DNA from: Synechococcales cyanobacterium S06
GTDB lineage: Bacteria > Cyanobacteriota > Cyanobacteriia > Cyanobacteriales > JAABRE01
DNA: 64,000 nt
Reading direction: 5' to 3'
Assembly: GCA_011391125.1 (NCBI GenBank)
Contig: JAABRE010000011.1
Coordinates: forward strand, 1-64,000
Below the pieces are notes generated by a model. The model searched no databases. It worked only from the letters and a program-made list of their open reading frames with translations, and had not been told where the DNA came from. How positions within the stretch are numbered: the stretch's first letter is position 1; each line of letters starts with the position of its first letter. The position numbers and the translations under genes are program-made. Shown in pieces: positions 5,560 through 63,999 of this stretch.

Positions 5560-6002
5560 TGGAGCAATTTAAAAGCGAAAAAAAACAGCGTTTTATTCTC
5601 GTAAAAGTCGGCGAAATAACCGTAGTTTTTCCTTCAGAAATAGTCGCTGAAATTGGTATTATTGACCGCAATAAAATCATGAATTTACCCTTTTATAGTG
5701 ACCGTTTAAAAGGCTGTATTTATTATAATGGTAAAATCATTTCTTTAGTGGAACTTAAAACAATTTTAGAGGTAGATTCTCTTTTTAATAAAGAGCAACT
5801 GATTGTGGTATGTTTAAACGAAAAAGCTGATCAACTTCAGGGAATTGGTTTAATCGCCGAGCAAGTTTTAGGGAGTAAAAATCAAGAAGAATTACCGCCA
5901 GAATTGTGGACAAATCAGGCAAAAAAAGTAAAATTATTTAAACTAGAAATGTTAGATCAAAATATTTGGGAATTACAAAATTATTACTCAAAATCTAACT
6001 AA
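5559..6002 (+). CDS. CheW-like adaptor (PixI/PilI type)
   Basis: 147 residues with a CheW fold. The typical beginning FILVKVGEITVVFPSEIVAEI is followed by LKGCIYYNGKIISLVELKTIL, the Y-x-G-x-x-P/I-L-DL-like segment. CheW proteins bridge receptors to the CheA kinase. Its first base overlaps the last base of the preceding stop codon (5559), so the two are almost certainly co-translated. The protein is slightly shorter in conserved core than enteric CheW and diverged, as usual for the Pix/Tax series. Confidence 0.87.
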   Translation: MEQFKSEKKQRFILVKVGEITVVFPSEIVAEIGIIDRNKIMNLPFYSDRLKGCIYYNGKIISLVELKTILEVDSLFNKEQLIVVCLNEKADQLQGIGLIAEQVLGSKNQEELPPELWTNQAKKVKLFKLEMLDQNIWELQNYYSKSN

Positions 6003-6111
6003 AAATAGGAGTATTTTTAATTAGATTTTGAAAAAATTATCACTAAATCGGTAAAATTGGCCTCCATTTATCAATAAGGCTAAATAGAGAATTTAATCAT
6101 AGGTGAAAAAG

Positions 6112-8850
6112 ATGATATTTCCACAGGAAACAAGTCAAGAAATTAAGCAAAAAACGCCAAAATATAATGAGGATATTTTAGAAAAGAAGCTAATTCAAGC
6201 AAAAGGTTTCGGGTTAGGTTTTAAAGCTACTATTCTAGCTTTTGTCTTTGGAGTTGTACCAGTTTCCATTGTTAGTTGGGTCTCCTATTATTATGCGGAT
6301 ATTGCCATTACCGAAAAAACATCTTTAGCTAAAATTACCGAGGTTGAAAAATTATCCTATAGCTTGAGTAAATTTTTACAAGAAAGAATTAATAATAATA
6401 AAAATATCGTAAATTTCGTTAATTTACTTTATCCTAATCTTCAAGATATTCAATTACTTAATGCCGAAGAAAAAACTCGATTAGAAAATATTTTAAATCA
6501 AGTTTACGGCGATTATTTGATATTTCAACATATCGGTATTTATAATTTACAAGGTGATTTAATCGTTCAATCCATTGGCTCTACTCGAGAATTAAATAAA
6601 CAAAAATATCAATTTTTTCAAGAGGTCGTCAAAACTGGTAATATTGTTATTAGTGAACCCTTGGGCTATGAAACAAATGATCCCAGAAGTTTAGCTATTT
6701 ATTTAGCTATTCCCCTTAAAAATAATCTAAATAAAACACAGGCAATTGTTATTAGTCGTATCGGGGCTAATTCTCTCGGTAATGCTATCTTAAGAAATGC
6801 TAGTTTAGAACCCGGAATCAGCTATCAATTAATTGATAGTAACGGTAAGATTTTTCAAAACTTTCAAGACTCACAAAAAACTCCCCTCGGAACTAAAATT
6901 AGTGAAATCTTACCCCTTTATGATCAAATTAATACCTTTAGAGATAGTAAAGCTTGGATTAATGATAACTCAAACAAGCAAACTTTAAATGCTTATACTC
7001 CTATTATTAGCGGAGTAAAATTAAACTGGAGTTTGGTAACTTCTACGTCTCCAGAGCAGGCTTTCTCGGCTCAAAAACAGTTAGCTCAAACTATTACTTT
7101 TGGTACGATAATTATGGCAGTTTTAGCGGTAATTATTGGTGCAATTATCGCAAATTTATCTATTCGTCCAGTTTTATTAGCTACTACTGTCGTCGAAAAA
7201 ATAGGACAAGGCCAATTAAAGATTAGATTACCGGTTCAGGGTAATGATGAATGGGCTATTTTGAATGAGAATATTAATAAAATGGCCAGTGAAATTGAAG
7301 ATTTATTGGCCACTTTACAACGAAATTCTCAACAGTTAACTCACCAAAATAATATCCTCTCTGAATTAGCTAAAAATGACGCGGTCATTCAAGGTGATTT
7401 ATCATCTGCTGCTCTTACTTTTACCGAAACTATTGCTAATACTCTTAAGATAGAACGGGTTTCCATTTGGCTTTATAATTTATCAGAAAATGCCCTCGTT
7501 ACCACTGATATTTATGACGCTATTAATCAGAAACATTCGGCTAATTTAAGCCTTAATTTTGCCGATTATCCTGATTATATTAATGCTTTAAATGATGATA
7601 AACCTATTGTGGCTTTTGATGTTAATACTAATCCTTTTACTGCTGAATTAGTAACTAATGAATTGGCAAATCTGGGCATTAAATCTAAGTTGGATATCCC
7701 CATTTCTCTTAGTGGTAAAACTGTGGGAACAATTACCTGTGAACAAATTAGCAAACCTAGAACTTGGCGACCTCAAGAACAAACTTTTGTCGCTTCTGTC
7801 GCCAATTTAACTGCCTTGGCTTTAGAAAATCAAACTTTACAAAATGAAGTAGGCTCTCTCCTCGATTTAGTTTCCGATATTGAAACTGGAAATTTGACAG
7901 TTAAAGCGACAGTAAGCGATCGCACCACGGGGTTGGTAGCTGATACTCTCAACAGATTAATTGAAGAACTTGCCCAAGTATTGCAACAGGTACTAGATAC
8001 CGCCAAACAGGTTAGTGAAGGTACGGACAACTTGCAACTGATCTCGCAAACGGTTGCTGATGGTACGATCCAGCAAGCTGAAGCCGTGACCAAGGTTAAG
8101 GAATTATCCCAATTAGTTGAGCAATCTGCCGAAAATTCCGCCGAGAAAGTGCAAATGACCAAAAAATCCCTGTCTTCTCTTGATGTTACCGTGAAATTTG
8201 GGGAAAAATCCATGATGTCCTTGGGGGCAAGTATCCAAATTTTGCAACAAGGGACAGATAGGATTATTCAGCAAATGAAGACATTGGGAGAATTCGTGGG
8301 ATTAGCGGACCAATTCCTGCAAGATCAGGGAGAAATCGCCCAACAAACCCAAGTTTTGGCGCTAAATGCCGCTTTAGTCGCAGCTAGGGCCGGTGAACAA
8401 AAAGACCCTCGCCGTTTTGAAATGGTAGCCAAAGACTTTGAAGGTATTGCCAATCAAATTAGTCTTTTAGCTCAAAAAACCAATGAGGGTTTGGGGGTGT
8501 TAGAAGAAAGAACCAGCCAAATTCACACCGTGGTGACAACTGTTGATAATGAAGTCCAAAATTTAGGCGGTTTAGTCGGAGGCTTTACCAAAGGCGTTGA
8601 GCAATCAAGTAGATTATTTAAAGGGGTCAGAAATGTTACCAAAAAGGCGATCGCGGACGGAGAAAATGTAGCGCAATCAAATCAAGAAATTTTGACAGCA
8701 ACCTTAGAAACAGTGGAGGCAATTAAAAATATTGAAAAAACGACCATAGAAACCGCAAATATTACAAAAGATAGTTTAAAACAATCACAATTGATGGAAA
8801 AATTATCGAATCAATTATTAGAAAGAATTAAATTCTTCCAACTTCCCTAA
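6112..8850 (+). CDS. Methyl-accepting chemotaxis-like receptor with GAF domain (PixJ/PilJ type)
   Basis: About 912 residues. The ATG at 6112 is preferred because TAGG precedes it at good spacing; GTG at 6103 is the longer alternative. One membrane helix (about residues 38-60) and a second (about 330-352) bracket an extracytoplasmic sensor of 270 residues resembling Cache domains. A HAMP segment (SIRPVLLATTVVEKIGQGQL), a GAF domain (about 425-575) and a long coiled-coil signalling domain follow, with tip QVLALNAALVAARAGEQ. The GAF domain has a lone Cys in TITCEQ and no CH or DXCF motif, so it should not bind bilin as Synechocystis PixJ1 does. The position in the operon is that of pixJ1. Confidence 0.88.
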   Translation: MIFPQETSQEIKQKTPKYNEDILEKKLIQAKGFGLGFKATILAFVFGVVPVSIVSWVSYYYADIAITEKTSLAKITEVEKLSYSLSKFLQERINNNKNIVNFVNLLYPNLQDIQLLNAEEKTRLENILNQVYGDYLIFQHIGIYNLQGDLIVQSIGSTRELNKQKYQFFQEVVKTGNIVISEPLGYETNDPRSLAIYLAIPLKNNLNKTQAIVISRIGANSLGNAILRNASLEPGISYQLIDSNGKIFQNFQDSQKTPLGTKISEILPLYDQINTFRDSKAWINDNSNKQTLNAYTPIISGVKLNWSLVTSTSPEQAFSAQKQLAQTITFGTIIMAVLAVIIGAIIANLSIRPVLLATTVVEKIGQGQLKIRLPVQGNDEWAILNENINKMASEIEDLLATLQRNSQQLTHQNNILSELAKNDAVIQGDLSSAALTFTETIANTLKIERVSIWLYNLSENALVTTDIYDAINQKHSANLSLNFADYPDYINALNDDKPIVAFDVNTNPFTAELVTNELANLGIKSKLDIPISLSGKTVGTITCEQISKPRTWRPQEQTFVASVANLTALALENQTLQNEVGSLLDLVSDIETGNLTVKATVSDRTTGLVADTLNRLIEELAQVLQQVLDTAKQVSEGTDNLQLISQTVADGTIQQAEAVTKVKELSQLVEQSAENSAEKVQMTKKSLSSLDVTVKFGEKSMMSLGASIQILQQGTDRIIQQMKTLGEFVGLADQFLQDQGEIAQQTQVLALNAALVAARAGEQKDPRRFEMVAKDFEGIANQISLLAQKTNEGLGVLEERTSQIHTVVTTVDNEVQNLGGLVGGFTKGVEQSSRLFKGVRNVTKKAIADGENVAQSNQEILTATLETVEAIKNIEKTTIETANITKDSLKQSQLMEKLSNQLLERIKFFQLP

Positions 8851-8915
8851 TCAAGTAATTATTAACAATTATGGATACATTACCAAAATTTAGGACCATT
8901 AAAATAAAGAATATT

Positions 8916-8986
8916 GTAGGGTGGGTTAGGTGGCGAAAATAAAATTCGGCTCAACCGAGATCAGAAAATCCGCCGTAACCCACCAT
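8916..8986. mobile_element. 71-bp palindromic miniature element, copy 1
   Basis: The element begins GTAGGGTGGGTTAGGTGGCG and ends CGCCGTAACCCACCAT, with ends that are imperfect inverted repeats. It is identical to the copy at 9071-9141 and shares its ends with 11025-11094. This GTAGGGTGGGTTA / TAACCCACC type is common between cyanobacterial genes. No target duplication can be assigned because the copy lies inside a tandem duplication. Confidence 0.75.
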
Positions 8987-9070
8987 CACAACTAATTAAA
9001 AATTAACAATTACGGATTTAAAATTATGGATACATTACCAAAATTTACGACCCTTAAAATAGAGAATATT

Positions 9071-9141
9071 GTAGGGTGGGTTAGGTGGCGAAAATAAAAT
9101 TCGGCTCAACCGAGATCAGAAAATCCGCCGTAACCCACCAT
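9071..9141. mobile_element. 71-bp palindromic miniature element, copy 2
   Basis: Base-for-base identical to 8916-8986. Located 32 bases before the true start of the second receptor gene, so any hairpin or promoter in it would fall directly in that gene's leader. Confidence 0.75.
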
Positions 9142-9172
9142 CACAACTAATACTAATGAAAAATTAACAATT

Positions 9173-11014
9173 ATGGATACATTACCAAAATTTACGACCA
9201 TTAAAATAGAGAATCAAAATAAGAGTAATCAACCTAAAAATAAGGGTTTTAAAGATTTCCTTAATGCCAACTTAACTGAAGTAATCGGTAGTTTAGTAAT
9301 CTTAAGTTTAATCCTATTTGGCGGTTCAATTTGGAATACCTGGACTGCTTATCGTGGGTTTAAAGATAACATTACTAAAGAGTTTAAACTTCAAGATTTA
9401 AGTGGTCAAATTGTGCATTTAGACGAAGTATTAACGATGTCCGCGCGTCTGGCTGCTAGTACAGGGGAAACGCGTTGGGAAAACCGTTATAATAACTTTG
9501 TCACACCTTTAGATACTGCTCTTAAAAACATTATTAAATTAGCACCTTCGGCCATTGAAGAAAATACTACGAAGACAGATCAAGCTAATCTTAAATTAGT
9601 GGAAATGGAAACAAAAGCTTTTCAATTAGTTAGAGCTGGAAAAAGTAAAGAAGCGTTAGAATTATTATTAGGAAAAGAGTATGAAGATCAGAAACAAATC
9701 TATTCCCAAGGGATTAATACAACCTTATCAAATATTAAAGAAAGTATCGACAAAGATATAGCATTATATAGTCAGCGGTTAAGAAATTCTGTTATTTTTG
9801 CAGGAATAACTTTACCCATTTTAGTCATAAGTTGGAGCATAATTTTCTGGTTAATTAAAAGTTATATAAGCGATCGCCAAAAAGCCTTAAATGAGTTATC
9901 AAACTCGCAAAAAGAATTACTACAATTGAATAATGAATTAGAAAATACCAGTCAAAAAATCATTGAACAAGAGCAAATTACCCAACAAGAAAATGAGCTA
10001 TTACAAACAGATGTCAGTCATCTTTTAGACGTAGTTTCTCTGATGGAAGAAGGGGATTTAACCATTAATGCTGAGGTAAATGATCGCCTTACCGGATTAG
10101 TTTCTGATACCTTAAACCGTTTATTAGAACAGTTAAGAGAAATTATTAATCAAGTTATTAAAACCACGGAAAAAGTAACCACTGGAACCACAAAATTAGA
10201 AGATGTTGCCTTAAATACCGCAACTCAGATTCAAGAACAAACGGAATTAATTGTAGAATGCGAGCAATTAATTGGTCAAGTAGCCAAATTGTCCCAGGAC
10301 ACATTAGAACAGGAATTAGTGGCCAATAAAGCGATCAAAAATGCACAAACTGCGGTTAAAAATGGTGAGCAAAAAATGAATACCATGACCGTAAAAATGG
10401 TTATTTTGCAAGAAGAAACCGAACTAATTGTCACGAGGGTAAATACACTAACAGACTTCGTTGACTTAGCATCTAAATTTAGTAAAGATCAGAAAAAACT
10501 AGCAGCATTAACGAGGGTATTGGCGTTAAATGCTTCAATGATTGCGACTAGAGCCTCTCAACAACAAGACCCAGAACAATTTATGAGTACAGCACGAGAA
10601 TTTGAAACCATTGCCCGTCAAGTGAACGATTTAGCGGTAGAAACGAACGAAAACCTATTAGTTTTGCAACAAAGAACTGATAAAATTAAAACAGTAGTAT
10701 CGGGATTAAATCAGGATACAGAAGATATTAATAATCTAGTCAAAGACTTTACATTAGGACTAAAAGAATCCTATCAAATGTTCCAAGAAATCAGTAAAAT
10801 TACTAACCAAATTGTGGAGGTAGAAGAGGAAGTAATGAAATCTAGTCATAAAATTACCGATTTAACTACTAATACCTTAAATTCCATTGAAAATATTTCT
10901 AAAATTGCCCAAACTACCGAACAAGAAATGAAAATTACTTTAGCACAAACAAACACTATGAATACCTTAGCATTTAACCTATTAGAAATAATCAAATTCT
11001 TTCGTACTAATTAA
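9173..11014 (+). CDS. Second MCP-like receptor of the chemosensory operon (PixJ2 position)
   Basis: 613 residues. Membrane helices are at about 35-57 and 205-230, with a 150-residue extracytoplasmic four-helix-like sensor between them. A coiled coil and a receptor signalling domain follow, with tip region TRVLALNASMIATRASQQ. Compared with the neighbouring receptor the tip is degenerate: MIATRASQQ replaces the usual alanine-rich AAxxAARAGE pattern. There is no GAF domain. The start at 9173 is the third of three near-identical copies, and only it leads into the full frame. In Synechocystis the equivalent place is filled by a second, smaller receptor gene. The ligand is unknown. Confidence 0.85.
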   Translation: MDTLPKFTTIKIENQNKSNQPKNKGFKDFLNANLTEVIGSLVILSLILFGGSIWNTWTAYRGFKDNITKEFKLQDLSGQIVHLDEVLTMSARLAASTGETRWENRYNNFVTPLDTALKNIIKLAPSAIEENTTKTDQANLKLVEMETKAFQLVRAGKSKEALELLLGKEYEDQKQIYSQGINTTLSNIKESIDKDIALYSQRLRNSVIFAGITLPILVISWSIIFWLIKSYISDRQKALNELSNSQKELLQLNNELENTSQKIIEQEQITQQENELLQTDVSHLLDVVSLMEEGDLTINAEVNDRLTGLVSDTLNRLLEQLREIINQVIKTTEKVTTGTTKLEDVALNTATQIQEQTELIVECEQLIGQVAKLSQDTLEQELVANKAIKNAQTAVKNGEQKMNTMTVKMVILQEETELIVTRVNTLTDFVDLASKFSKDQKKLAALTRVLALNASMIATRASQQQDPEQFMSTAREFETIARQVNDLAVETNENLLVLQQRTDKIKTVVSGLNQDTEDINNLVKDFTLGLKESYQMFQEISKITNQIVEVEEEVMKSSHKITDLTTNTLNSIENISKIAQTTEQEMKITLAQTNTMNTLAFNLLEIIKFFRTN

Positions 11015-11024
11015 CACCAATTTA

Positions 11025-11094
11025 GTAGGGTGGGTTAGGTGCAAGATTAATTTTGAGAAAAAACGAATAACTTTTTTTGCACCGTAACTAACCC
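11025..11094. mobile_element. 70-bp palindromic miniature element, diverged copy
   Basis: Ends GTAGGGTGGGTTAGGTGCA and TGCACCGTAACTAACCCT match the elements at 8916 and 9071, but the middle differs. It fills the gap between the second receptor gene and the CheA gene, and a T-run follows. The receptor gene is thus bracketed by the same element family. Confidence 0.65.
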
Positions 11095-11139
11095 TTTTTT
11101 TTAGACTTACCAATTAATCATTAACTAAGAATAATTAAC

Positions 11140-14100
11140 ATGGAAAAACTAGATTTAATTGAATTAGAATTACAGGAAGAATTAAGGGGACTATTTGAGG
11201 CCGATACCCAAAATTATCTCCAAAAATATCTCAATTTAGCCCAAGAATTGCAACCAGAAACATGGCAAAGTGAGATACAGGAAATGTATCGTTCTATTCA
11301 TACAATTAAAGGAGGTGCAGTTACAGTAGGAGCAGATGCTATCCTATATGTAGCAACGGTTTTAGAAGATTTATTGTCCGATTTACGTTATTTAGATCCC
11401 CCTCCTTTTTTAGCAGATGGAAAGTTAGGCCAAATGTTATTAGAAGTAGGGGAATTATTAGCAGGTACTATTACAATTAATCTGCCCGAAACCGAAATTT
11501 TAGCAGCAGTTAATCCCATTATTGAAAGAATTAAAACCCTCCATGAAGAGATTAAAAAGCTTTATTTACCTGAGTGGAATGAGCAGAGTTTATTACATCA
11601 GGAATTTGCAGAACAAGGTTTTGATTTGGTAGTTTTAGATTTAGAAATGGCCTTAGAAAATTTAGCTACCGAATCAAAAATACCTGACAATACCATCGAA
11701 ATTGCGACGATTACTTTAAAACAATTGCAACAAATTGGCCAAGATTTACAATTGGCCGAAGGTTGGACTCAACTTTTAACTAAAGCTGAAACAATTAGCA
11801 AGATAATTGATGTAAACTTCTGGAGATCGCAGTGGTTTACTCTTTTAGCGGATTTAAAAAATTGCGTCAAACATGGTGGAATTATCAAGATAGAAGCAAA
11901 AATTTCACCAGTAGAAGAACAAGAATTTTTGCTAGAAAATGAAGAAGGAGACTTTTCTGATTTTACCGAGGATGATTTTTCCAATTTAGATGAATTATTA
12001 CCAGAAAATTTAGCGACTTTAACCACTCTTATTAATCAGAAAAAAGAAGCAGATTTTAACACTTTTGAAGCAGAAGATTACTCAAATTTAGATGAATTAT
12101 TACCAGATAATTCCCAACCAGAAAATTCCACTTTTGAAGCAGAAAATTACTCAAATTTAGATGAATTATTACCAGATAATTTTCGACCAAAAAATTTTAC
12201 TTTTGAAGCAGAAGATTACTCAAATTTAGATGAATTATTACCAGATGACTTATTTAGTGAAGAATTAAGGGAGTTAATTGCCGAAGAAGATATTGATTGG
12301 GAATTTGAAGACAATGCCCCTTCAACTATTATTTATCATCAAAATACCAGTGAAGAAAAACCCACCGAAATTAGAATCTCTGTTCCCTTAACTCGTTTAG
12401 ACAAAACTGCACAAAATTTAGTTGAAACCCTTTTAGCAGCAAGGTCTTCCCAAGGTATTTATTCGCAATTAAAATCCCAATTAACTCAGCTATTTATCTT
12501 AGCTCAAGAAAACGCCAAATATATCACTCATTTGCGACAAATTCAAGATGAATATGCTAATTTAAACGAGATTAAAGCTACTACTAATAATGCCCAAGAT
12601 GGCGTAATTTTAGAACAATATCGCCAGGGATATACTACTATTAATCATCTCTTAGAAACCAGTTTACGCTTATCAGAATTAGGCGCAGAAGTAGCAGAAA
12701 TTTCTAATCAAACAGAAAACGCTTTACAAAATTTAGATCGCACCATTATTAACTTACAATCTTCCGTGGAAGAAAGTCGCCTTTTATCATTTCAAAAGCT
12801 GGCTTTTCGCGCTAGAGCTATTATTCGAGACCTGAATAATCGTTATCAAAAAAATGTCGAATTACACATAGAAGGGGAACATATTGAACTTGATGCCAGT
12901 ACCGCTTCCCAGTTAGAACCAGTTTTGTTGCATCTATTGCGCAATGCTTTTGACCACGGAATCGAGTCCCCTGAAATTAGAACTAATCAGCATAAACCCC
13001 CCAAAGGCACAATTAAGCTATCTTTGCAACGACAAGGGAAAATTTTTATCTTAAAAGTTCAAGATGATGGTAAAGGCATGGAAGCTGACCACATTAGCAA
13101 ACTTGCTCGCTCAAAAAATCTACCCCTCACCGAGACCCGTAATAATGCGCAACTTTTAGCGGTTATTTGTCAACCCGGTTTTACTTCCCAAACTCAAGTT
13201 ACCGATATTTCCGGCCGTGGTGTGGGTATGGATGTGGTAGCCAATCAAGTTGCCCATCTCGGCGGTTTGCTGACTCTTGAAACGAGTCCCGCTCAAGGTA
13301 CGACTTTTGTCATCGAAATTCCACCTCTGGCCTTGTTAGTTCCTTGCGTTTTGGTACGTTCTGGCGATCGCACTTTGGCATTTCCCACCGACGAAATTAC
13401 CACGATTAATCTTGTTGGTCAAATAAATCTAACCATACTTGATCACTCCAACTATATGTATGCCATGGTCGTCACCTCCGAAACCGGAGTAACTCCCGCA
13501 TTTGACTTGGCAAACTATGGTATGACAAGGGAAACTAAGCGCACTTTTGCCGAAACTGCCTTAGCTATTTATGTCAAATCCGCCAAATTAAATCAAGGAG
13601 TGTGGTTATTGGCTGATGATTTATTAGGACAGAGAGAATTATTGATTAACTCCCTACCTTCTCCCTTAAAACCACCTTTAGGAATCATGGGACTGAGTTT
13701 GAACCTTGATGGCACTTTAATCCCCGTTTTAGCTCCCGCCAATTTGGCTGAATTAATCCTTACTGCACCAGCAAAAACTGCCCCAGGTGAAGCTATTTCC
13801 CCTCAAAATACGGCCAAAACTGAGTCTCAAAGCGGTTTGAGCCGCACTATTTTAATTGTTGATGATGCAGCCCTAGTGCGTCGTCGTCTTGAAGTTAGTT
13901 TAACTGCATCTGGTTACCAAGTTCAAGCTTGTGTTGATGGTTTAGACGCTTGGACTTGGCTACAAAGTAATCAGACCCCCGCTTTGTTGATTACTGATAT
14001 CGAAATGCCGGAAATGGACGGTTTTACCCTCATTGATCGCTGTCGCAAGTCCGGTTTTAGCTTTCCTGTTTTAGTCATCTCCTCCCGTCTCTCTGAAGAA

Positions 14101-14211
14101 TGGAGCAAAGAATCCCGCCGAGTCGGAGCTAATGACTACCTAACCAAAGGGTTTTCCACCCCCGATTTGATTAATAAAGTTAAGGAATTACTGAATCTTA
14201 GCTTGCGTTAA
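11140..14211 (+). CDS. CheA-type hybrid histidine kinase with receiver domain (PixL/TaxAY type)
   Basis: 1023 residues. An Hpt domain with phospho-accepting His54 (RSIHTIKGGAV) comes first. It is followed by an acidic linker with repeats (about 274-370), a dimerisation helix pair, and a HATPase with N-box HLLRNAFDHGIE near 600 plus DDGKGM and GRGVGMDVV. A CheW-like regulatory domain comes next, then a C-terminal receiver with phospho-acceptor Asp953 in LLITDIEMPEMDGF. All catalytic motifs look intact. It would phosphorylate the two regulators at the start of the operon under control of the receptors through CheW. The fused receiver is standard for Tax/Pix CheA proteins. Confidence 0.93.
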   Translation: MEKLDLIELELQEELRGLFEADTQNYLQKYLNLAQELQPETWQSEIQEMYRSIHTIKGGAVTVGADAILYVATVLEDLLSDLRYLDPPPFLADGKLGQMLLEVGELLAGTITINLPETEILAAVNPIIERIKTLHEEIKKLYLPEWNEQSLLHQEFAEQGFDLVVLDLEMALENLATESKIPDNTIEIATITLKQLQQIGQDLQLAEGWTQLLTKAETISKIIDVNFWRSQWFTLLADLKNCVKHGGIIKIEAKISPVEEQEFLLENEEGDFSDFTEDDFSNLDELLPENLATLTTLINQKKEADFNTFEAEDYSNLDELLPDNSQPENSTFEAENYSNLDELLPDNFRPKNFTFEAEDYSNLDELLPDDLFSEELRELIAEEDIDWEFEDNAPSTIIYHQNTSEEKPTEIRISVPLTRLDKTAQNLVETLLAARSSQGIYSQLKSQLTQLFILAQENAKYITHLRQIQDEYANLNEIKATTNNAQDGVILEQYRQGYTTINHLLETSLRLSELGAEVAEISNQTENALQNLDRTIINLQSSVEESRLLSFQKLAFRARAIIRDLNNRYQKNVELHIEGEHIELDASTASQLEPVLLHLLRNAFDHGIESPEIRTNQHKPPKGTIKLSLQRQGKIFILKVQDDGKGMEADHISKLARSKNLPLTETRNNAQLLAVICQPGFTSQTQVTDISGRGVGMDVVANQVAHLGGLLTLETSPAQGTTFVIEIPPLALLVPCVLVRSGDRTLAFPTDEITTINLVGQINLTILDHSNYMYAMVVTSETGVTPAFDLANYGMTRETKRTFAETALAIYVKSAKLNQGVWLLADDLLGQRELLINSLPSPLKPPLGIMGLSLNLDGTLIPVLAPANLAELILTAPAKTAPGEAISPQNTAKTESQSGLSRTILIVDDAALVRRRLEVSLTASGYQVQACVDGLDAWTWLQSNQTPALLITDIEMPEMDGFTLIDRCRKSGFSFPVLVISSRLSEEWSKESRRVGANDYLTKGFSTPDLINKVKELLNLSLR
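11966..12255 (+). repeat. 69-bp coding tandem repeats in the CheA linker
   Basis: The motif F-E-A-E-D/N-Y-S-N-L-D-E-L-L-P-D recurs at 12063, 12132 and 12201 with an exact 69-base period (23 residues). A more diverged first copy (FTEDDFSNLDELLPEN) ends near 12010. The repeats lie between the Hpt and kinase domains, where ordinary CheA has its P2 docking domain. Confidence 0.88.
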
Positions 14212-36905: not shown

Positions 36906-36965
36906 ATCAATAAGATTAGAAATTTTTGCTAATTACTTATTGATAAAAACATGGATAGTTAATTG

Positions 36966-37176
36966 TCAACTATCAACTATCAACTATCAACTATTAACTA
37001 TTAACTATCAACTATTAACTATCCACTATCAACTATCAACTATCAACTATCAACTATCAACTATCAACTATCAACTATCAACTATTAACTATCAACTATC
37101 AACTATCAACTATTAACTATTAACTATCAACTATCAACTATCAACTATTAACTATTAACTATCAACTATTAACTAT
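36966..37176. repeat. Long heptamer tandem repeat (TCAACTA)n, about 30 units
   Basis: Units of TCAACTA and TTAACTA, with one TCCACTA, run without a break for about 210 bases and stop 11 bases before the nurA ATG. Such heptanucleotide repeats are known in cyanobacterial genomes. No spacers are present, so it is not a CRISPR array. The gap 36668-37187 holds only repeats. Confidence 0.93.
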
Positions 37177-37187
37177 CTAAATTCCTT

Positions 37188-38387
37188 ATGTTAGATATAA
37201 ATAAATTAGCTACACAAATTCCCGTTATTAGTGAACATTTAAAAGCAGAAGCGATCGCCTCTCAAAAAAGATTGACTAAAGGGAAACAAATATTAAAAGA
37301 AACGGGAGAAAATCAGCGCCACTGGCTAAAGATACAGGAACAATGGCGGGAACATTTAATATTTGCACCGGCAACTCCGGTGGAGGAAATTGATATTTCT
37401 TATCCCATTTCTTCGCCCCCAGAAAGTCATACTGTTTTCGCCACTGATGGTTCACAAATATCCCCTTCTCACCATGAAATTACCTATTGTTATCTGATTA
37501 ATATTGGCAGGGTAATGTTACATTATGGGCAATCTTTGCATCCTTTATTAGATAGTATTCCCGAAGTTTATTATAAATCAGAAGACCTTTATATTTCTCA
37601 ACCGTGGAATATTTCGACAGAGGAATGGATGGGCTATCGTCGCACCGTTTTAGAAGCGCAAATGCTGTCAGAAATGGCCACTCGTTGGGTTTTACCACCA
37701 GGTGCGCACCATCACACCCCCAATTTAGCTTTGGTTGACGGTTCTCTCATTTATTGGTTTTTAGACAAGTTGGTTTCCGAAGCAAAGGATCAACTGTTAC
37801 CGCCGATTTTGGCCGCTTGGGAAGATTTGCGTAACAGCAAGATTCCCCTGATGGGCTATTTAAGCGCATCTCGCAGTCGCGAAGCGGTGAATTTCCTGCG
37901 TTTTCCTGCTTGTACGTTCGATTTCCCCAATTGCATCGTTAATTGTCGCGATTCTGAGGAAGAAAATAAACCTTGTCAATTAATTCATCCCATCCGGGAT
38001 ACTACTCTTTGGGGGAGTGTCTTACCAGCGGGGCACAGAAGCGCTCTGTGGCGCAGTAATTTGCGCATTTTGGACTATTATGACGAGCCCCAAAGGGTCT
38101 ATTTTTGCTATGTTAATGTGGGCAATGAAATCGCTAGAATCGAGCTACCCGCTTGGGTGGCCGAAGATTCCACTTTATTTGAACAGTCTTTAGGTATTAT
38201 GTTGGCTCAAGTTTACAAGGGTTATGGCTATCCCGTAGCCTTGGCGGAAGCACACAACATGGCCGTGGTCCGAAGTAGAGATCGCCATAGCTTTTTTAAC
38301 CTACTTGAACAACAAATGATTCGCAGTGGCTTAAAAAATGTGGGAACATCCTACAAAGAAGCGAAAAAAAGGGGTAGTATTGCTTAG
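37188..38387 (+). CDS. nurA: NurA-domain nuclease
   Basis: 399 residues. The NurA 5'-3' nuclease fold is marked by TVFATDGSQISPSHHE (first metal-binding Asp near residue 88), LALVDGSLIYWFLDKL (second Asp) and a late EAHNMAVVRSRDRH. In archaea NurA resects DNA ends with the HerA helicase; cyanobacteria carry it without an obvious partner nearby. The leader lacks a Shine-Dalgarno sequence because the heptamer array reaches to within 11 bases of the ATG. A GTAGGGTGGGCATGGCCCACC hairpin follows the stop codon. Confidence 0.85.
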   Translation: MLDINKLATQIPVISEHLKAEAIASQKRLTKGKQILKETGENQRHWLKIQEQWREHLIFAPATPVEEIDISYPISSPPESHTVFATDGSQISPSHHEITYCYLINIGRVMLHYGQSLHPLLDSIPEVYYKSEDLYISQPWNISTEEWMGYRRTVLEAQMLSEMATRWVLPPGAHHHTPNLALVDGSLIYWFLDKLVSEAKDQLLPPILAAWEDLRNSKIPLMGYLSASRSREAVNFLRFPACTFDFPNCIVNCRDSEEENKPCQLIHPIRDTTLWGSVLPAGHRSALWRSNLRILDYYDEPQRVYFCYVNVGNEIARIELPAWVAEDSTLFEQSLGIMLAQVYKGYGYPVALAEAHNMAVVRSRDRHSFFNLLEQQMIRSGLKNVGTSYKEAKKRGSIA

Positions 38388-42141: not shown

Positions 42142-42375
42142 ATGGAAAATTACCCCCAAGAAAAAAAAATCGCTATCTGTATTAATAATCAAGATTATCC
42201 CGCTTCTTTAGAACTTAGAAAAATATATCAAATAATAACTGACCTAAAAGCCGAATCTCATCAAATGATCAGAATAATAGATGAAAGTGGAGAAGATTAT
42301 CTTTATCCTACAGGTTATTTTGTAATAGTTGAATTACCCGAAATTGCCCAAAAATTGTTTACTAAAGTGGGTTAA
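42142..42375 (+). CDS. Small SGEDYLYP-motif protein, intact copy of a four-member family
   Basis: 77 residues: IAICINNQDYPASLELRKIY, then RIIDESGEDYLYPTGYFVIV and ELPEIAQKLFTKVG. This is the only undamaged copy; relatives at 43750, 44500 and 45442 are broken. The family pattern (short beta-rich N-terminus, I-D-E-S-G-E-D-Y-L-Y-P, YF-x-I-V-E-L-P) recurs in cyanobacteria beside the HWYE-type protein and toxin-antitoxin genes as far as I recall. Function unknown. In this island each copy closes a cassette, directly after a toxin gene in three of the four cases. Confidence 0.75.
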   Translation: MENYPQEKKIAICINNQDYPASLELRKIYQIITDLKAESHQMIRIIDESGEDYLYPTGYFVIVELPEIAQKLFTKVG

Positions 42376-42451
42376 TTTTCTTAAGGGAAAATGGGATAAA
42401 ATGGAAATTGAGTTATTATCAAAATAATTAATTATTAAGAAGAATTTTGCC

Positions 42452-42658
42452 ATGATTAAAACTATTGATGTTTCCGATTTAAAACCCGAACAAATCGAAA
42501 ATTTACAGGACATTATTGCTGCTTTTAAAGTGCAAAATCAAGCTAATAAGAATGGTCCATCTAAATTTAATATGATTGACTATTTGTTAGAACATCCCCT
42601 AGAAGTTGATGATTTACAATTTATGAAACGAGAGGAAATTTATGACAGAAATAAATAA
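42452..42658 (+). CDS. Antitoxin of a PIN module, first copy
   Basis: 68 residues: MIKTIDVSDLKPEQIENLQD, then a variable middle and KREEIYDRNK. It is a close paralogue of the gene at 46376 (first 26 codons nearly identical). The start overlaps nothing upstream and has an AAGAAGAA leader. The toxin start at 42642 lies inside its 3' end (17-base overlap), the usual antitoxin-then-toxin coupling. The partner toxin is broken, so this is probably a leftover antitoxin. Confidence 0.78.
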   Translation: MIKTIDVSDLKPEQIENLQDIIAAFKVQNQANKNGPSKFNMIDYLLEHPLEVDDLQFMKREEIYDRNK

Positions 42659-43068
42659 GAATCTTTGTTTTATTGATTCTAATATTTGGCTGTCTGCTTT
42701 TTCTACTGATAAAAAAGAAGAGACTAAAAGAATTTTAGCCAAACAATTAATTCAGGAAAAAACTATCGTCATTAGTACACAAGTTATTAATGAAGTTTCT
42801 TCCAATCTACTTAAAAAATATAAAATTGATGAAGCAATCTTATGAAGATTAATTGATTCTTTTTACGAGAAATATCAAATTATTTCTTTTAATCTTAAGA
42901 TTCTTAAATCAGCATCTAACCTGAGAAATAATTATTCCTTATCATTTTGGGATAGTTTAATTGTTGCTTTCTATTTCTTTTTCTAACGCAAATTTTCTCT
43001 ATTCAGAAGATATGCATGATGGTTTAATTATTAATAATAAACTTACTATTATTAATCCTTTTAAATAA
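42642..43068 (+). pseudogene. PIN-domain toxin, broken by nonsense and frameshift
   Basis: The frame starts MTEINKNLCFIDSNIWLSAF with the first PIN aspartate and runs to a TGA at 42843-42845. It continues in the same frame with RLIDSFYEKYQIISFN and ASNLRNNYSLSFWDSLIVA (later acidic site). A one-base insertion in GCTTTCTATTTC then shifts the frame; the +1 frame restores SNANFLYSEDMHDG and LTIINPFK to a TAA at 43068. Its paralogue at 46598 shows what the intact reading would be. At least two independent lesions make it non-functional. Confidence 0.85.
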
Positions 43069-43113
43069 TTAATTAAACTTGATAACTCATAATGACCCAG
43101 CAGGATCAAAGAG

Positions 43114-43190
43114 GAATTGAGTTATAATTTATTTATATTATGGAGGTCATTATGTCGAAATTGTCCTTAGATCAAACTCAACTTAAACAA
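43114..43190 (+). promoter_or_regulatory. Duplicated promoter-leader segment, copy 1
   Basis: GGAATTGAGTTATAATTTAT with a TATAAT at 43123-43128 and the GGAGGTC ribosome site is repeated almost unchanged at 43989-44066, together with the first 13 codons of the following antitoxin gene. The -10 to start spacing fits a short leader. No clear -35 box. Confidence 0.6.
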
Positions 43191-43403
43191 ACAGTCCGAG
43201 AAATGATGTTAGAAATATTCGCCGAAAATTCAGAATATTTTTATCAATCTTTTAGCAAAATAATCGAAAACAAATCCGATCAAAAATTGATAGAATTTGA
43301 GTTAGATTTAGAAGAATCAGCTAATTTATACGCAGAAATTTATCAAGAAAGTAAGGAATTACAAGAGTTAACTGAATCAGCATTATTGGATTTTGTCGAA
43401 TGA
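43152..43403 (+). CDS. Antitoxin paired with MazF-type toxin
   Basis: 83 residues from the ATG at 43152, which has GGAGGTC 8 bases before it; an ATG at 43140 lies upstream of that site and is not used. It begins MSKLSLDQTQLKQTVREMML, has a helical middle, and ends acidic (LDFVE). It overlaps the toxin by four bases (ATGA, 43400-43403). The first 23 residues closely resemble those of the antitoxin at 44027, which serves a RelE-type toxin; the rest is unrelated. Confidence 0.82.
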   Translation: MSKLSLDQTQLKQTVREMMLEIFAENSEYFYQSFSKIIENKSDQKLIEFELDLEESANLYAEIYQESKELQELTESALLDFVE

Positions 43404-43753
43404 ATAAATTAGAAAAAGGAATGATAATTGATGTCAATCTTGATCCAACAAAGGGATCAGAAACTGGTAAAATACGCCCTTGTATTATTGTTACTAATAA
43501 TACTTATAATGAGAGAGTACCTATAATTCAAGTTGTCCCAATAACAGAATGGAGTGAGAAAAAAGTTAGGATTAAAACTAATGTTGAAATTACTCCTTCT
43601 CCTGTTAATGGATTAGTAAAAAAATCTATTGCTGATTGTTTACAAACAAGGCCGATTGATTATCGTTTAAGATTAGTTAAAATACGAGGTAAATTAGAAA
43701 TAAAAATAATAGAACAAATTAATGAAGCTTTGAAAATTGTATTTGCTATATGA
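43400..43753 (+). CDS. MazF/PemK-type endoribonuclease toxin
   Basis: 117 residues. The family opening KLEKGMIIDVNLDPTKGSETGKIRPCIIVTNN is intact, with the conserved R-P-C/V-L/I-I-V strand, then VPIIQVVPITEW and SIADCLQTRPIDYRLR. This fold cleaves mRNA at short sites. It overlaps the antitoxin upstream (ATGA) and the small SGEDYLYP-type ORF downstream (ATGA at 43750-43753), giving a three-gene coupled unit. No damage seen, so this is one of the intact toxins of the island. Confidence 0.9.
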   Translation: MNKLEKGMIIDVNLDPTKGSETGKIRPCIIVTNNTYNERVPIIQVVPITEWSEKKVRIKTNVEITPSPVNGLVKKSIADCLQTRPIDYRLRLVKIRGKLEIKIIEQINEALKIVFAI

Positions 43754-43969
43754 ATCATCTCAATTTTGTTCTTTGTATTAACCATAAAAATTGTGAAGAT
43801 TTAACTTTATTAAAGGTTTATCAAGTATTACCGCGATGAAGCGGCTGCTAGGGATAATTATATTAGAATTATCGATGATTCTGATGAAGATTATCTTGAT
43901 CCTGCTAATTATTTTGTAATAGTTGAATTACCCGAAATTGCCCAGAAATTGTTTACTAAAGTCGGTTAA
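43750..43969 (+). pseudogene. SGEDYLYP-family small ORF, frameshifted copy
   Basis: Starts at ATG 43750 inside the MazF stop codon and reads MNHLNFVLCINHKNCEDLTL, then KVYQVLPR to TGA at 43837-43839. Dropping one C (CCG-c-GAT GAA) restores DEAAARDNYIRIIDDSDEDY and the family ending to TAA 43967-43969. The copy at 45442 has the same one-base difference at the same codon. It is either an inherited lesion or, less likely, a recoding site. Confidence 0.8.
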
Positions 43970-43988
43970 TTTTTTTCAGGGAAAATGG

Positions 43989-44066
43989 GAATTGAGTTAT
44001 AATTTATTTATGTTATGGAGGTTATTATGTCAAGATTATCCTTAGATCAAACTCAACTTAAAGAAA
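43989..44066 (+). promoter_or_regulatory. Duplicated promoter-leader segment, copy 2
   Basis: Near-identical to 43114-43190, with TATAAT at 43998-44003 and GGAGGTT before the ATG at 44027. The duplication covers promoter, ribosome site and the antitoxin's first codons. Confidence 0.6.
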
Positions 44067-44236
44067 CCTTTAAAAAAGCAATATTAGAACTTTTTTACGA
44101 AAATAAAGAGGAATTTTCGGCCTTACTCGTAGAAATAAGGGAAGATATTGCTTTATCAAAAGCTATTGAAGAAGGAGAACAAACCGAATTAGTGGATCGA
44201 GATTCAATTTTCGCTATTTTAGATCAAGAATCATGA
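44027..44236 (+). CDS. Antitoxin paired with RelE-type toxin
   Basis: 69 residues from the ATG at 44027 (GGAGG upstream). It begins MSRLSLDQTQLKETFKKAIL, nearly the same as the MazF antitoxin at 43152, then differs: EIREDIALSKAIEEGEQTEL and a DRDSIFAILDQES ending that fits RelB/ParD-like toxin wrapping. It ends TCATGA, overlapping an ATG that would start the toxin (44233). Its toxin has lost the proper frame at that point. Confidence 0.8.
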   Translation: MSRLSLDQTQLKETFKKAILELFYENKEEFSALLVEIREDIALSKAIEEGEQTELVDRDSIFAILDQES

Positions 44237-44495
44237 AAACAGAATAAAAAGTTTTGCTAAAGATTTAAAAAAGATTAAAGATTTTAACTTGTTAAAACGA
44301 GTAAAATTGGTCATAGAAGAAATCGAAAAAGCTGATAATTTACAGTCCATTAATAACTTAAAATTTCTCAAAACAGCTAGTAATCATTATCGCATTCGAG
44401 TTGGTGATTATCGAATTGGTATCTCTATTAATAATGATGTTGTTACCTTGGTAAGAATTTTACATCGACAAGAAAATTATCGCAATTTTCCTTAA
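44233..44495 (+). pseudogene. RelE/ParE-type toxin with a start-proximal frameshift
   Basis: The family reading NRIKSFAKDLKKIKDFNLLKRVKL, continuing to YRIRVGDYRIGISI and VRILHRQENYRNFP, is complete but is out of frame with the coupled ATG at 44233. ATGAAAAC has four A where five would give M-K-N-R-I-K. In the proper frame no ATG, GTG or TTG occurs before a TTG at 44289, which would delete about 17 residues. The A-run could have lost one base. Probably inactive or poorly made. Confidence 0.75.
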
Positions 44496-44499
44496 ATAT

Positions 44500-44724
44500 A
44501 TGCCAAATTATCCCCAAATTGCTATATGTATTAACAATCAAAATTACCCCGCTTCTTGAGAACTTAGAAAAATATATCAAACAATACCTTATCTAAAAGC
44601 CGAGTCTTATCAAATGATTAGAATAATAGATGAAAGTGGAGAAGATTATCTTGATCCTGCTAATTATTTTTTAATAGTTGAATTACCAAAAATTGCGCAA
44701 AAATTGTTTACTAAAGTCGGTTAA
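44500..44724 (+). pseudogene. SGEDYLYP-family small ORF, nonsense copy
   Basis: MPNYPQIAICINNQNYPAS is followed by TGA where the intact copy has TTA (leucine). The frame then continues ELRKIYQTIPYLKAESYQMI and RIIDESGEDYLDPANYFLIV to TAA at 44722-44724. It is the closest relative of the intact copy at 42142. It starts 4 bases after the RelE stop codon. Confidence 0.85.
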
Positions 44725-44762
44725 TATGTAGTTAAATTTAATTATTAAGGAGGTAATATTTT

Positions 44763-45026
44763 ATGACAGTTAAACAGCAATTAATCCAAGAAATAGAAGA
44801 AGTACCAGATTATTTAGCTAAAGAAATTCTTAATTTCTGTTTATTTCTTAAAGCAAAAATTAAAGATCAGGAATCTCAATCAACCGAAAATAATTTACCG
44901 GATTTTTTAGATTTTATTGACGAAATTACTAAAGAAGTTCCCTTGAATGAATGGGAAAAACTACCTAGTGATTTATCTAAAAATATCGATCATTATTTGT
45001 ATGGAATACCTAAAATTGAACCATGA
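44763..45026 (+). CDS. DUF2281-like antitoxin of a PIN module
   Basis: 87 residues. The start MTVKQQLIQEIEEVPDYLAKEILNFCLFLKAK matches the DUF2281 pattern (hydrophobic helix ending in FLxFLK), typical of antitoxins for PIN toxins. The C-terminal half is acidic with EVPLNEWEKLPSDLSKNIDH, likely the toxin-binding segment. GGAGG precedes the ATG, and the stop overlaps the toxin ATG (ATGA, 45023-45026). Confidence 0.82.
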   Translation: MTVKQQLIQEIEEVPDYLAKEILNFCLFLKAKIKDQESQSTENNLPDFLDFIDEITKEVPLNEWEKLPSDLSKNIDHYLYGIPKIEP

Positions 45027-45445
45027 AAACCTTTTTTGTTGATACGGGATATTGGGTTGCGATTGTTAATCCTGCTGATCAATTATATCAGAAAGCACGG
45101 TTAATTACTAAACAATTAGCTCCTTTTAAAATTGTTACCAGTGAAATGATATTTAATGAGTTATTAAATACTTTTTCTAAACAAGGAACATTTCTTAAAC
45201 AAGTAGCAATTAAGTTAGTTAATCAATCCTATAATAATCCTAATCTTGAAATTATTGCTCAAAATACCGACCTATTTAAACAGTCATTAAAACTTTATGA
45301 ACAACGTCTTGATCAAAATTGGAGTCATACAGATTGTTCCTCGTTTATAATTATGAAACAAAAAGGAATTTTAGAAGCTCTTGCTTATGATAAACATTTT
45401 GAACAAGCTGGTTTTATTCCTTTATTACGTCAAAATAAATTATGA
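45023..45445 (+). CDS. PIN-domain toxin (VapC-like)
   Basis: 140 residues. First acidic residue in FFVDTGYWVAIVNPAD, then SEMIFNELLNTF, and SHTDCSSFIIMKQKGILEALAYDKHFEQAGF, which carries the remaining PIN acids and the typical A-x-D-x-H-F-x-x-A-G-F end. It appears intact. It overlaps the antitoxin upstream and the next small ORF downstream (ATGA 45442-45445). Confidence 0.9.
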   Translation: MKTFFVDTGYWVAIVNPADQLYQKARLITKQLAPFKIVTSEMIFNELLNTFSKQGTFLKQVAIKLVNQSYNNPNLEIIAQNTDLFKQSLKLYEQRLDQNWSHTDCSSFIIMKQKGILEALAYDKHFEQAGFIPLLRQNKL

Positions 45446-45661
45446 ATCATGTAAATTTTGTTGTTTGTATTAACCCAGAAAACTGCGAAGATTTAACCTT
45501 ATTAAAGGTTTATCAAGTATTACTGCGATGAATCCTCTGCTAAGGATAATTATATTAGAATTATCGATGATTCGGGTGAAGATTATCTTGATCCCGCAGG
45601 TTATTTTGTAATAGTTGAATTACCAGAAATTGCCCAAAAATTGTTTACTAAAGTCGGTTAA
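45442..45661 (+). pseudogene. SGEDYLYP-family small ORF, second frameshifted copy
   Basis: ATG 45442 overlaps the PIN stop codon. The frame MNHVNFVVCINPENCEDLTL, KVYQVLLR ends at TGA 45529-45531. Removing one C (CTG-c-GAT GAA) gives DESSAKDNYIRIIDDSGEDY, LDPAGYFVIVELPEIAQ and the family ending. The break is at the same codon as in the copy at 43750, although the surrounding sequence has diverged. Confidence 0.8.
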
Positions 45662-45683
45662 TATTTTATTATTCGAGGTATTT

Positions 45684-46019
45684 ATGTCTCAGTTAATCCA
45701 GAAAAAAAATCCCAATATTGATTTACCAATGGAGTTAATTAAAGAATTTTGTCACCGTTGGGAAATTCAAGAATTTGCCTTATTTGGTTCAGTTTTAAGG
45801 GATGATTTTACAGAGGATAGTGATATTGATATTCTGGTTTCTTTTAACTCTAATTCTCATCCAACTTTATTCGATCTTGTGAAAATGGAAAATGAACTTA
45901 AAATTATTTTTAATCGAGAGATTGATTTAGTTAGTAAAAGGGGTATTGAAAACAGTCGTAATTATTTACGTCGTCAAGAAATATTACATAGTTATCAGGT
46001 TATTTATGCTCAGAGATAA
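45684..46019 (+). CDS. mntA: MntA-type minimal nucleotidyltransferase antitoxin
   Basis: 111 residues from the ATG at 45684 (GAGG 9 bases before); an upstream ATG at 45615 lies within the previous small ORF. The nucleotidyltransferase motif G-S-x9/10-D-x-D is FALFGSVLRDDFTEDSDIDILVSF, with a later acidic residue in REIDLVSK. In MntA-HepT systems this enzyme adds AMP to the HEPN toxin and silences it. Its 3' end overlaps the toxin gene by 14 bases. Confidence 0.9.
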   Translation: MSQLIQKKNPNIDLPMELIKEFCHRWEIQEFALFGSVLRDDFTEDSDIDILVSFNSNSHPTLFDLVKMENELKIIFNREIDLVSKRGIENSRNYLRRQEILHSYQVIYAQR

Positions 46020-46332
46020 ACAGTTTATTTTTGATATGTTAGATTCGGCTGAATTAGCTTTAGGTTATTTACAAAAAGTCTCTAAACAAGACTTTTTAAC
46101 TAATACTTTAATTCAAGATGCTATTATTAGAAGATTATTAGTGATTGCCGAAGCTGCTCGTCGTATTTCAGAGGAAACTAAACAAAATAATCCTCAAATT
46201 TCTTGGGTTGAAATTAAGGGGATGCGTAATCGTTTAGTTCATGAATATGATGATATTGATTTAGAAATAGTTTGGGAGGCCTTAGAAAAAGATATTCCTA
46301 ATTTGATTGTGCAGTTACAAACTCTTATTTAA
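46006..46332 (+). CDS. hepT: HepT-type HEPN ribonuclease toxin
   Basis: 108 residues from the ATG at 46006, which begins MLRDKQFIFDMLDSAELALG as other HepT proteins do; the open frame extends 20 codons upstream in the antitoxin gene. The HEPN R-x4-H-x-Y active site is RNRLVHEY in KGMRNRLVHEYDDID, with the Tyr that MntA modifies. A complete four-helix HEPN fold is likely. The module is intact. Confidence 0.92.
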   Translation: MLRDKQFIFDMLDSAELALGYLQKVSKQDFLTNTLIQDAIIRRLLVIAEAARRISEETKQNNPQISWVEIKGMRNRLVHEYDDIDLEIVWEALEKDIPNLIVQLQTLI

Positions 46333-46375
46333 TTTCTTTGTCATAATTAAATTAATTATTAAGGAGAATTTTGCC

Positions 46376-46588
46376 ATGATTAAAACTATTGATGTTTCCG
46401 ATTTAAAACCCGAACAAATCGAAAATTTACAGGCTATTATTGCTGCTTTTAAAACTAAAAATCAAATAGAAACTCAAGAATTATCTCATCTTAATCACGA
46501 AGAAGATATGATCGATTTTTTGTCAAAAAATCCCCTTCCCGTTGATGGATTTTTAACCCGTGAAGAAATTTATAATCGTCAAGGTTAA
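46376..46588 (+). CDS. Antitoxin of a PIN module, second copy
   Basis: 70 residues from the ATG at 46376 (AAGGAGAA before it); the longer frame from 46307 starts inside hepT and is not favoured. It begins MIKTIDVSDLKPEQIENLQA, nearly identical to the copy at 42452, including the leader TTTTGCCATG. The C-terminus (FLSKNPLPVDGFLTREEIYN) is longer. A 9-base gap leads to the toxin, which is interrupted by a mobile element. Confidence 0.82.
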   Translation: MIKTIDVSDLKPEQIENLQAIIAAFKTKNQIETQELSHLNHEEDMIDFLSKNPLPVDGFLTREEIYNRQG

Positions 46589-46597
46589 TTTAATAAA

Positions 46598-47236
46598 ATG
46601 AATAAAAATTTTATTGATACCAATATTTGGTTATATCGTTTATTTGATGATCAGAGAATTGAACCAACAGAAAGAGAAAGAAAACGAAATATTGCAATTT
46701 TAATTACAGAACAATCCAGTTTGATTATTAGTACACAGGTGGTTAATGAACTTTCTTTTAATTTATTAAAAAAAGGAAAATTTAATGAAGAACAAATTAA
46801 TATGGTGATTAAATCTCTTATTAATCGTTGTCAAATAATTAAGTTTGATCTAATTATTTGGGAAACTGCATCTAATCTGAGAAATAATTAGGGTTTACTG
46901 AAAAAAGCACAAAGCCATGTCGATCAAGAATTTCAAGTTGGTGGGACTTGAATTAAGTGCAAGGATTTCAACAACTAATAGTAAAAAACCTTACATTTAC
47001 GGGGATTAATCAAGATTTTTGCTCGTCAAAAGACCCGGTCAAACTATCAACTATCAACTATCAACTCGCCCTCACCAGCCATTTATTCAGCAAACCCTAA
47101 TTATTCCTTATCTTTTTGGGATAGTTTAATCGTTGCTTCAGCTTTATTTTCTAATGCTGATTTTCTCTATTCAGAAGATCTGCAGGATGGTTTAATTATT
47201 AATAATAACCTTACCATTATTAATCCTTTTAACTAA
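46598..47236 (+). pseudogene. PIN-domain toxin split by a 207-bp element
   Basis: The 5' part (46598-46890) reads MNKNFIDTNIWLYRLFDDQR with the first PIN aspartate and stops within ASNLRNN. After a 207-bp insertion, the 3' part (47098-47236) resumes YSLSFWDSLIVASALFSNAD, then FLYSEDLQDGLIINNN and INPFN. Removing the insertion and one copy of the 6-base duplication restores a continuous frame, which agrees with the paralogue at 42642. The toxin was therefore intact before the insertion. Confidence 0.92.
46891..47097. mobile_element. 207-bp non-coding insertion with inverted ends and TAATTA duplication
   Basis: Ends GGGTTTACTGAA and TTCAGCAAACCC are inverted repeats (11 of 12). Flanks are TAATTA at 46885-46890 and at 47098-47103. 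The interior includes three units of the TCAACTA heptamer. No transposase, so it is a miniature or remnant element; the IS family is not determined. Confidence 0.88.
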
Positions 47237-47288
47237 TAGTTTTTTTCTTTAACTTAGTTGCAATGGATCAAAAATATGGAGGTTCTTA

Positions 47289-63084: not shown

Positions 63085-63999
63085 TTAAGAAATCGGATTT
63101 CTGGCTAATTCTTTTACTATTTTAACTGTTTCTAAGCTAATTGTTATTATTTGTCCGATTAATCTTAGTATATATTGTTCGTCGTCTAAGTGATTACAAT
63201 CGTTAATTATCCCGCTCCTTTGATCGGTTTTTACTTGATACTGATCAATTACCCATTCTAAGGCAGATTTATTCCCTAATTTATATTCAAAAACTTCGTT
63301 GGGGATTCCTTTTAAGGTTAGAAAATCGTTATATTTTAACTCGGTTTTATCTTTATTTAAGCGCATTTTTTCGACTCGAAATAATCCCCCCCAACCCCCC
63401 TTACTAAGGGGGGAGTTTGAACCCCCCCAACCCCCCTTACTAAGGGGGGAGTTTGAATTTTCCACTATTTCTAAGGGGTATTCTGCTTGTTTTTCGTAGT
63501 TTAAATGTAAATCTGCTAGTTTTTTTCCTAATATTACAAAAGGGGAAAATTTAGGAGCAAAAGGTATTCTGGGGAGTTCCCTTTTTAGATTTTCTGCGTA
63601 TAATTTACGGTATTCTGGATGATGTAAAATGGCGTAAATATAATAAAATATGTCCCATTTTGTAATCTCCAATTCCCCTCCTTCTAAGGGGGGTTTAGGG
63701 GGGGTCAAATAACATTTTTGATACTCATTTAATATCCAATCGGTGATATTTTCTTGGCGATTTTCTCCATTTTCATTGTAGGTATAAAAGGGAAAAGATT
63801 GCTGAGGATCTGCATAAAAATTTAAGTCAGAAATATAACGAGTTATAATAACTGAAAAGTCTTTTCTTCCATATCCTCCGACACAAATTACTCGATTTTC
63901 TTCCTCACTTTTTATAGTCGGAAATATATAAGGAAATTGACCACGACGATCAATTAAAATCTCATCAAAATATAAATATTTTTGACAAAAAGGACGATA
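63085..63999 (-). CDS. Type ISP restriction-modification enzyme, C-terminal part (continues off the right edge)
   Basis: About 304 residues are visible, with the start outside the window. Recognisable pieces are YRPFCQKYLYFDEILIDRRG and VICVGGYGRKDFSVIITRYI, then WDIFYYIYAILHHPEYRKLY, LPRIPFAPKFSPF and SALEWVIDQYQVKTDQRSGI with ETVKIVKELARN. These are the end of the recognition domain of LlaGI-like single-chain type ISP enzymes. The frame is open but holds three repeat-derived insertions: TPPKPPLEGGELE and two tandem SPLSKGGWGGSN units, so activity is uncertain. Confidence 0.82.
   Translation of the reverse strand, partial: YRPFCQKYLYFDEILIDRRGQFPYIFPTIKSEEENRVICVGGYGRKDFSVIITRYISDLNFYADPQQSFPFYTYNENGENRQENITDWILNEYQKCYLTPPKPPLEGGELEITKWDIFYYIYAILHHPEYRKLYAENLKRELPRIPFAPKFSPFVILGKKLADLHLNYEKQAEYPLEIVENSNSPLSKGGWGGSNSPLSKGGWGGLFRVEKMRLNKDKTELKYNDFLTLKGIPNEVFEYKLGNKSALEWVIDQYQVKTDQRSGIINDCNHLDDEQYILRLIGQIITISLETVKIVKELARNPIS
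63386..63457. repeat. Two tandem 36-bp repeat units inside the type ISP gene
   Basis: CCCCCCCAACCCCCCTTACT plus AAGGGGGGAGTTTGAA is repeated with a 36-base period (12 codons), so the frame stays open. On the minus strand it encodes NSPLSKGGWGGS. The same run of C and G occurs as free intergenic repeats elsewhere. Confidence 0.9.
63671..63705. repeat. Third in-frame repeat insertion in the type ISP gene
   Basis: AATTCCCCTCCTTCTAAGGG with GGGGTTTAGGGGGGG is an imperfect palindrome that encodes TPPKPPLEGGE on the minus strand between NEYQKCYL and LEITKWDIFYY. Confidence 0.75.

Follow-up and report, generated by a model that had tools for sequence, protein, structure and literature searches.

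The triplicated start of the second receptor gene in a taxis operon of Synechococcales cyanobacterium S06 very probably results from the multiplication in tandem of a REP-like, GTAG-tagged palindrome together with some of the DNA beside it. This reading is based on the recurrence of element-plus-flank arrays at other loci and on the dispersal of the element as a family.

The triplicated gene start

The window (the whole stretch of 64,000 nucleotides that was analysed) contains a cyanobacterial-type taxis operon with the gene order response regulator, CheY, CheW, first receptor, second receptor and CheA hybrid kinase. From gene order and general knowledge, we take the first response regulator to be PatA-like. 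The junction of the two receptor genes has the order X-E-X-E-X, where X is a start copy and E is the palindromic element:

6103-8850, + strand: first receptor gene, dCache-HAMP-GAF-MCP, 915 aa; its stop codon abuts X1
8849-8913, + strand: X1, copy 1 of leader, ATG (8871) and 14 codons, starting at the upstream receptor's stop codon
8871-8942, + strand: stub ORF 1, MDTLPKFRTIKIKNIVGWVRWRK*, 23 codons and TAA; the palindrome or its edge holds the last nine codons and the stop
8914-8992, + strand: E1, GTAG-tagged palindromic REP-like element, core 8916-8984
8993-9068, + strand: X2, copy 2 of leader, ATG (9026) and 14 codons, with a partial leader copy, ACGGATTTAAAATTATGGAT
9026-9097, + strand: stub ORF 2, MDTLPKFTTLKIENIVGWVRWRK*, 23 codons and TAA; the TAA lies inside the element
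9069-9147, + strand: E2, second element, same sequence as E1, core 9071-9139
9148-9215, + strand: X3, copy 3, with the leader and probable true start of the second receptor
9173-11014, + strand: second receptor gene, 613 aa, weak match to an MCP signalling domain
11140-14211: CheA hybrid kinase gene

Position 9173 is probably the true start of the second receptor, since the open frame upstream is only ~13 codons longer and has no start codon, and the next in-frame Met lies only past the first hydrophobic segment. With X1 starting right at the first receptor's stop codon, ~20 bases would separate the two genes if the inserted units were absent. An Rfam search of positions 5900-11300 gave no match. 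Downstream, the CheA hybrid kinase gene contains three in-frame 69-nt repeats (12047-12253), which correspond to an acidic repeat, FEAEDYSNLDELLPDN.

As originally predicted, the leader, the ATG and the first codons of the second receptor (MCP) gene are present three times, with ~14 codons in each copy; ATGGATACATTACCAAAATTT is found at 8871, 9026 and 9173, the positions of the ATGs. A 52-nt core is shared by the three copies at 90-96% identity, with spacings of 155 and 147. Repeats of such length and identity cannot be due to chance. Start copies and elements join directly, with not a base between them. E1 and E2 are identical at 79 of 79 positions (TTGTAGGG...CATCACAAC, also bounded as TTGTAGGG...ATCACAAC), of which 69 nt form the strict core and the full 79 nt include the TTGT/ACAAC ends. 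The predicted identity of the two palindromes therefore held, while their predicted length of 71 bp did not, 71-nt versions being found elsewhere. The palindromes were also correctly said to supply the ending GWVRWRK and a TAA to the first two copies, so that both frames would encode the expected 23 residues.

Near identity of the start copies, by contrast, does not extend throughout. X1 differs from X3 at two codons (AGG/ACG and AAG/GAG) and X2 differs from X3 at one (CTT/ATT); the leaders contain indels, and the partial leader copy in X2 is an additional micro-duplication.

A dispersed palindromic family that forms arrays

A strict element pattern that requires GTAG, GTAGGGTGGGTTAG-N34-60-CGTAACCCACC, found 57 copies in the 4.8-Mb genome and none in the reversed control. 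The family was detected in 55 of the 293 genomes of the order that were searched, with lineage-specific interiors. GTAG was invariant in 18/18 aligned elements, as the search pattern itself demanded, and lies outside the GGTGGGTTA/TAACCCACC stem, which starts directly after it in these 18 diverse copies. The palindromic stem is kept through compensatory changes: 92.7% of cells were paired, against 34-46% when the alignment was slid; cells with a double change numbered 25, against 10.4 in shuffles (0/500), with five pairs changed on both sides; and stem covariation was 0.254, against 0.090 shuffled and at most 0.070 slid, all of this evidence pertaining to the inner stem pairs, as the outer pairs are fixed by the copy-selection pattern. 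Each of the two window copies is predicted to fold into a hairpin of -29.4 kcal/mol (z ~ -4.4), with a stem of 14 pairs and a bulge, and an inner region of ~36 nt that holds a small inner hairpin.

On these sequence features, the element is assigned to a GTAG-tagged, REP-like palindromic family. The GTAG REP super-family includes the cyanobacterial families GTAG-12, -15 and -16, and its members are tabulated with stems of 5-13 bp and loops of 2-20 bp (PMC3733652). The element shares with these REPs an unpaired GTAG at one end, a palindromic stem (here with compensatory change), dozens of dispersed copies (57 here), tandem clusters in which the flanking DNA varies, and a REP-associated tyrosine transposase in the genome (PMC3733652). 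It differs in being longer, with its 14-pair bulged stem and more than 20 nt in the inner region, and is called REP-like because stem and inner region exceed the published range.

Like MITEs such as the cyanobacterial Nezha (PMC3733652), the element is short, non-coding and dispersed, has inverted ends and lies in intergenic DNA beside genes, but no short target duplication was found at its copies here. Both the GTAG tag and the presence of a REP-associated transposase favour REPs. BIME-type REP clusters of enterobacteria (PMC2817692) resemble the window array in that several units joined by short linkers make up one cluster. The orientation of BIME units alternates; the window units are co-oriented, with a linker of local gene DNA that carries a start codon.

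The REP-associated tyrosine transposase of this genome (NF047646, 179 bits, cut-off 80) is encoded on contig C153 (L157:539-1420, gene and repeats). Its gene adjoins not the longer element but short GTAG repeats with GGTGCG stems (GTAG-GGTGCG...CGCACC-CTAC), which are a sister type of the element. After the transposase gene come oppositely oriented GTAG repeats (GTAGGGTGCG...CGCACC and GGTGCGTTAGCGACAGCGTAACGCACCCTAC), and between them AATTTAAGCATAAATGCAC units are arrayed in tandem.

Flanking DNA was compared between adjacent elements of like orientation. This showed tandem units, each made of the element and 11-66 bp of unrelated flank, at nine or more further places in the genome:

L011: tandem element and 3' flank, 54 bp of flank
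L110: tandem element and 3' flank, 47 bp, four elements
L020: tandem element and 3' flank, 43 bp
L015: tandem element and 3' flank, 21 bp
L016: tandem element and 3' flank, 19 bp, five elements
L026, L018 and L024: tandem element and 3' flank, 11 bp each
L019: tandem element and 3' flank, 52 bp, upstream element divergent
L102: 66-bp flank unit repeated, two elements, one of them flanked on either side by long direct repeats

Since the flanks are mutually unrelated, the element is their common factor. The occurrence of the same arrays at many unrelated places bears out the earlier idea of recurrent duplication. Only the window array, one of the 14 array loci inspected, has the start of a clear gene inside the repeated flank.

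In a second element-rich genome (G121), many elements lie within a larger palindrome, GTGCCGTGACAC...GTGTCACGGCAC. At six loci of that genome (L127-L129 and L131-L133) a GTGCCGTGACACAGC...GTGTCACGGCAC palindrome around the element forms a composite repeat of ~121 bp, itself in tandem. Captured flanks were considered for G121 and rejected, as the regular 121-bp spacing reflects the composite element.

The window also contains repeats of other kinds. A 36-nt palindromic repeat, CCCCCCCAACCCCCCTTACTAAGGGGGGAGTTTGAA, occurs in two exact tandem copies at 63386-63457 and represents another tandem-forming palindromic family. A long tandem array with a 7/14-nt unit (ATCAACT-like) lies at 36919-37219, and related inverted copies are found near 53377. 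Several direct-repeat pairs of 50-230 bp, mostly 75-94% identical, fall within 5 kb at 42167-47237; they suggest duplicated genes or a duplicated gene cluster.

Origin of the array

The array probably arose as follows. The element would have been present, or inserted, between both receptor genes of the PatA/CheY/CheW/MCP/MCP/CheA operon, and the unit of the element and ~65 bp of 3' flank would then have been duplicated in tandem, as at the other loci. With leader, ATG and 14 codons inside the flank, every duplication would have left a truncated start before the intact gene. Plain duplication of the element and its 3' flank does not account for the start copy that also precedes the first element, and one further event is needed. 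The exact abutment of start copies and element ends is a hint that both insertion and duplication may have happened in a single step. Two routes may be envisaged: (a) three element-plus-flank units were formed, and the first element was then lost between short CTAAT end repeats; or (b) the insertion duplicated a 65-bp target and one later exchange followed. Route (a) is favoured, because solitary elements lack long abutting repeats. This order of events, including how a start copy came to lie before the first element, is inferred, and the responsible agent may have been an enzyme or a replication slip.

Route (b) corresponds to an alternative explanation, in which insertion duplicates an unusually long target (~65 bp) to give X-E-X, and one unequal exchange produces X-E-X-E-X. 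The abutment without extra bases would suit this explanation, as would L102, where one element is likewise bordered left and right by long direct repeats. However, the solitary elements in the genome showed no consistent abutting direct repeat and none above 6 bp, and wherever long repeats do lie to either side (L102, L019, L110 and L015), the locus is part of an array with a further element copy. Taken together, the solitary elements and the arrays indicate that a long duplication is not the general outcome of insertion, and we consider this origin unlikely for the window array. A general rule of long target duplication, tried on the elements of the genome, was dropped for want of long abutting repeats at solitary copies. 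A literature search on long target duplications of REPs and on duplicated bacterial start codons found nothing relevant.

The stub reading frames

Under the preferred reading of a tandem element-plus-flank array, the two stubs are most likely a by-product, presumably with little or no function: since a dispersed REP-type family makes the same arrays at many unrelated places, no function has to be assumed for the stubs. Between the receptor genes the coding strand showed no terminator-like site. The stubs are therefore probably part of the operon mRNA, and they could slightly affect translation of the second receptor gene. Hairpins this strong in mRNA can affect decay or processing.

The original prediction went further and regarded the stubs as decoys that could lower or couple receptor translation. 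In a wider version of this idea, considered here, REP-like amplification together with flanks would turn a translation start into tandem leader minigenes, where ribosome loading and the 23-residue peptides, perhaps with hairpin unfolding, would tune how much of the second receptor is made compared with the first. The stubs and the true start share their first seven codons at the DNA level and almost agree in the bases immediately upstream of the ATG, and the uninterrupted coding strand and the strength of both hairpins are also compatible with such a role. On the other hand, all three codon substitutions between the stubs and the true start are non-synonymous, and these few sites give no sign of purifying selection; moreover, the 13 other array loci inspected contain no copied gene start.

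The relatives searched were 60 genomes of the same order, none closer than order level, and the nearest ortholog of the second receptor (in G026) has 53% identity. The arrangement was not found among the order-level orthologs examined, no element head was detected in the five ortholog loci searched, and a scan of genome contigs with the receptor as query found nothing. In G026 the gap before the orthologous receptor (L060:1277-1467) is filled by another, different repeat, a heptamer array of ACCATCA/ACTATTA flanked by AAATGCT repeats. The decoy claim thus found no support in the codon changes or the orthologs, and a regulatory role as leader minigenes is quite unlikely.

It is hardly credible that the triplication is an artefact of the short-read draft assembly (168 contigs), where elements identical over at least 79 bp could have misled it, since the three start copies differ by substitutions and indels, as expected of distinct sequences rather than one placed three times, and arrays with divergent units also occur elsewhere in the genome.

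The tandem array in the taxis operon indicates that a small palindromic repeat, as it multiplies, can copy a working gene start and so leave truncated frames within an operon. If such stubs are translated, new leader peptides would readily arise from them; if they are not, they would serve as a warning against a regulatory reading of duplicated starts beside REP-like elements.
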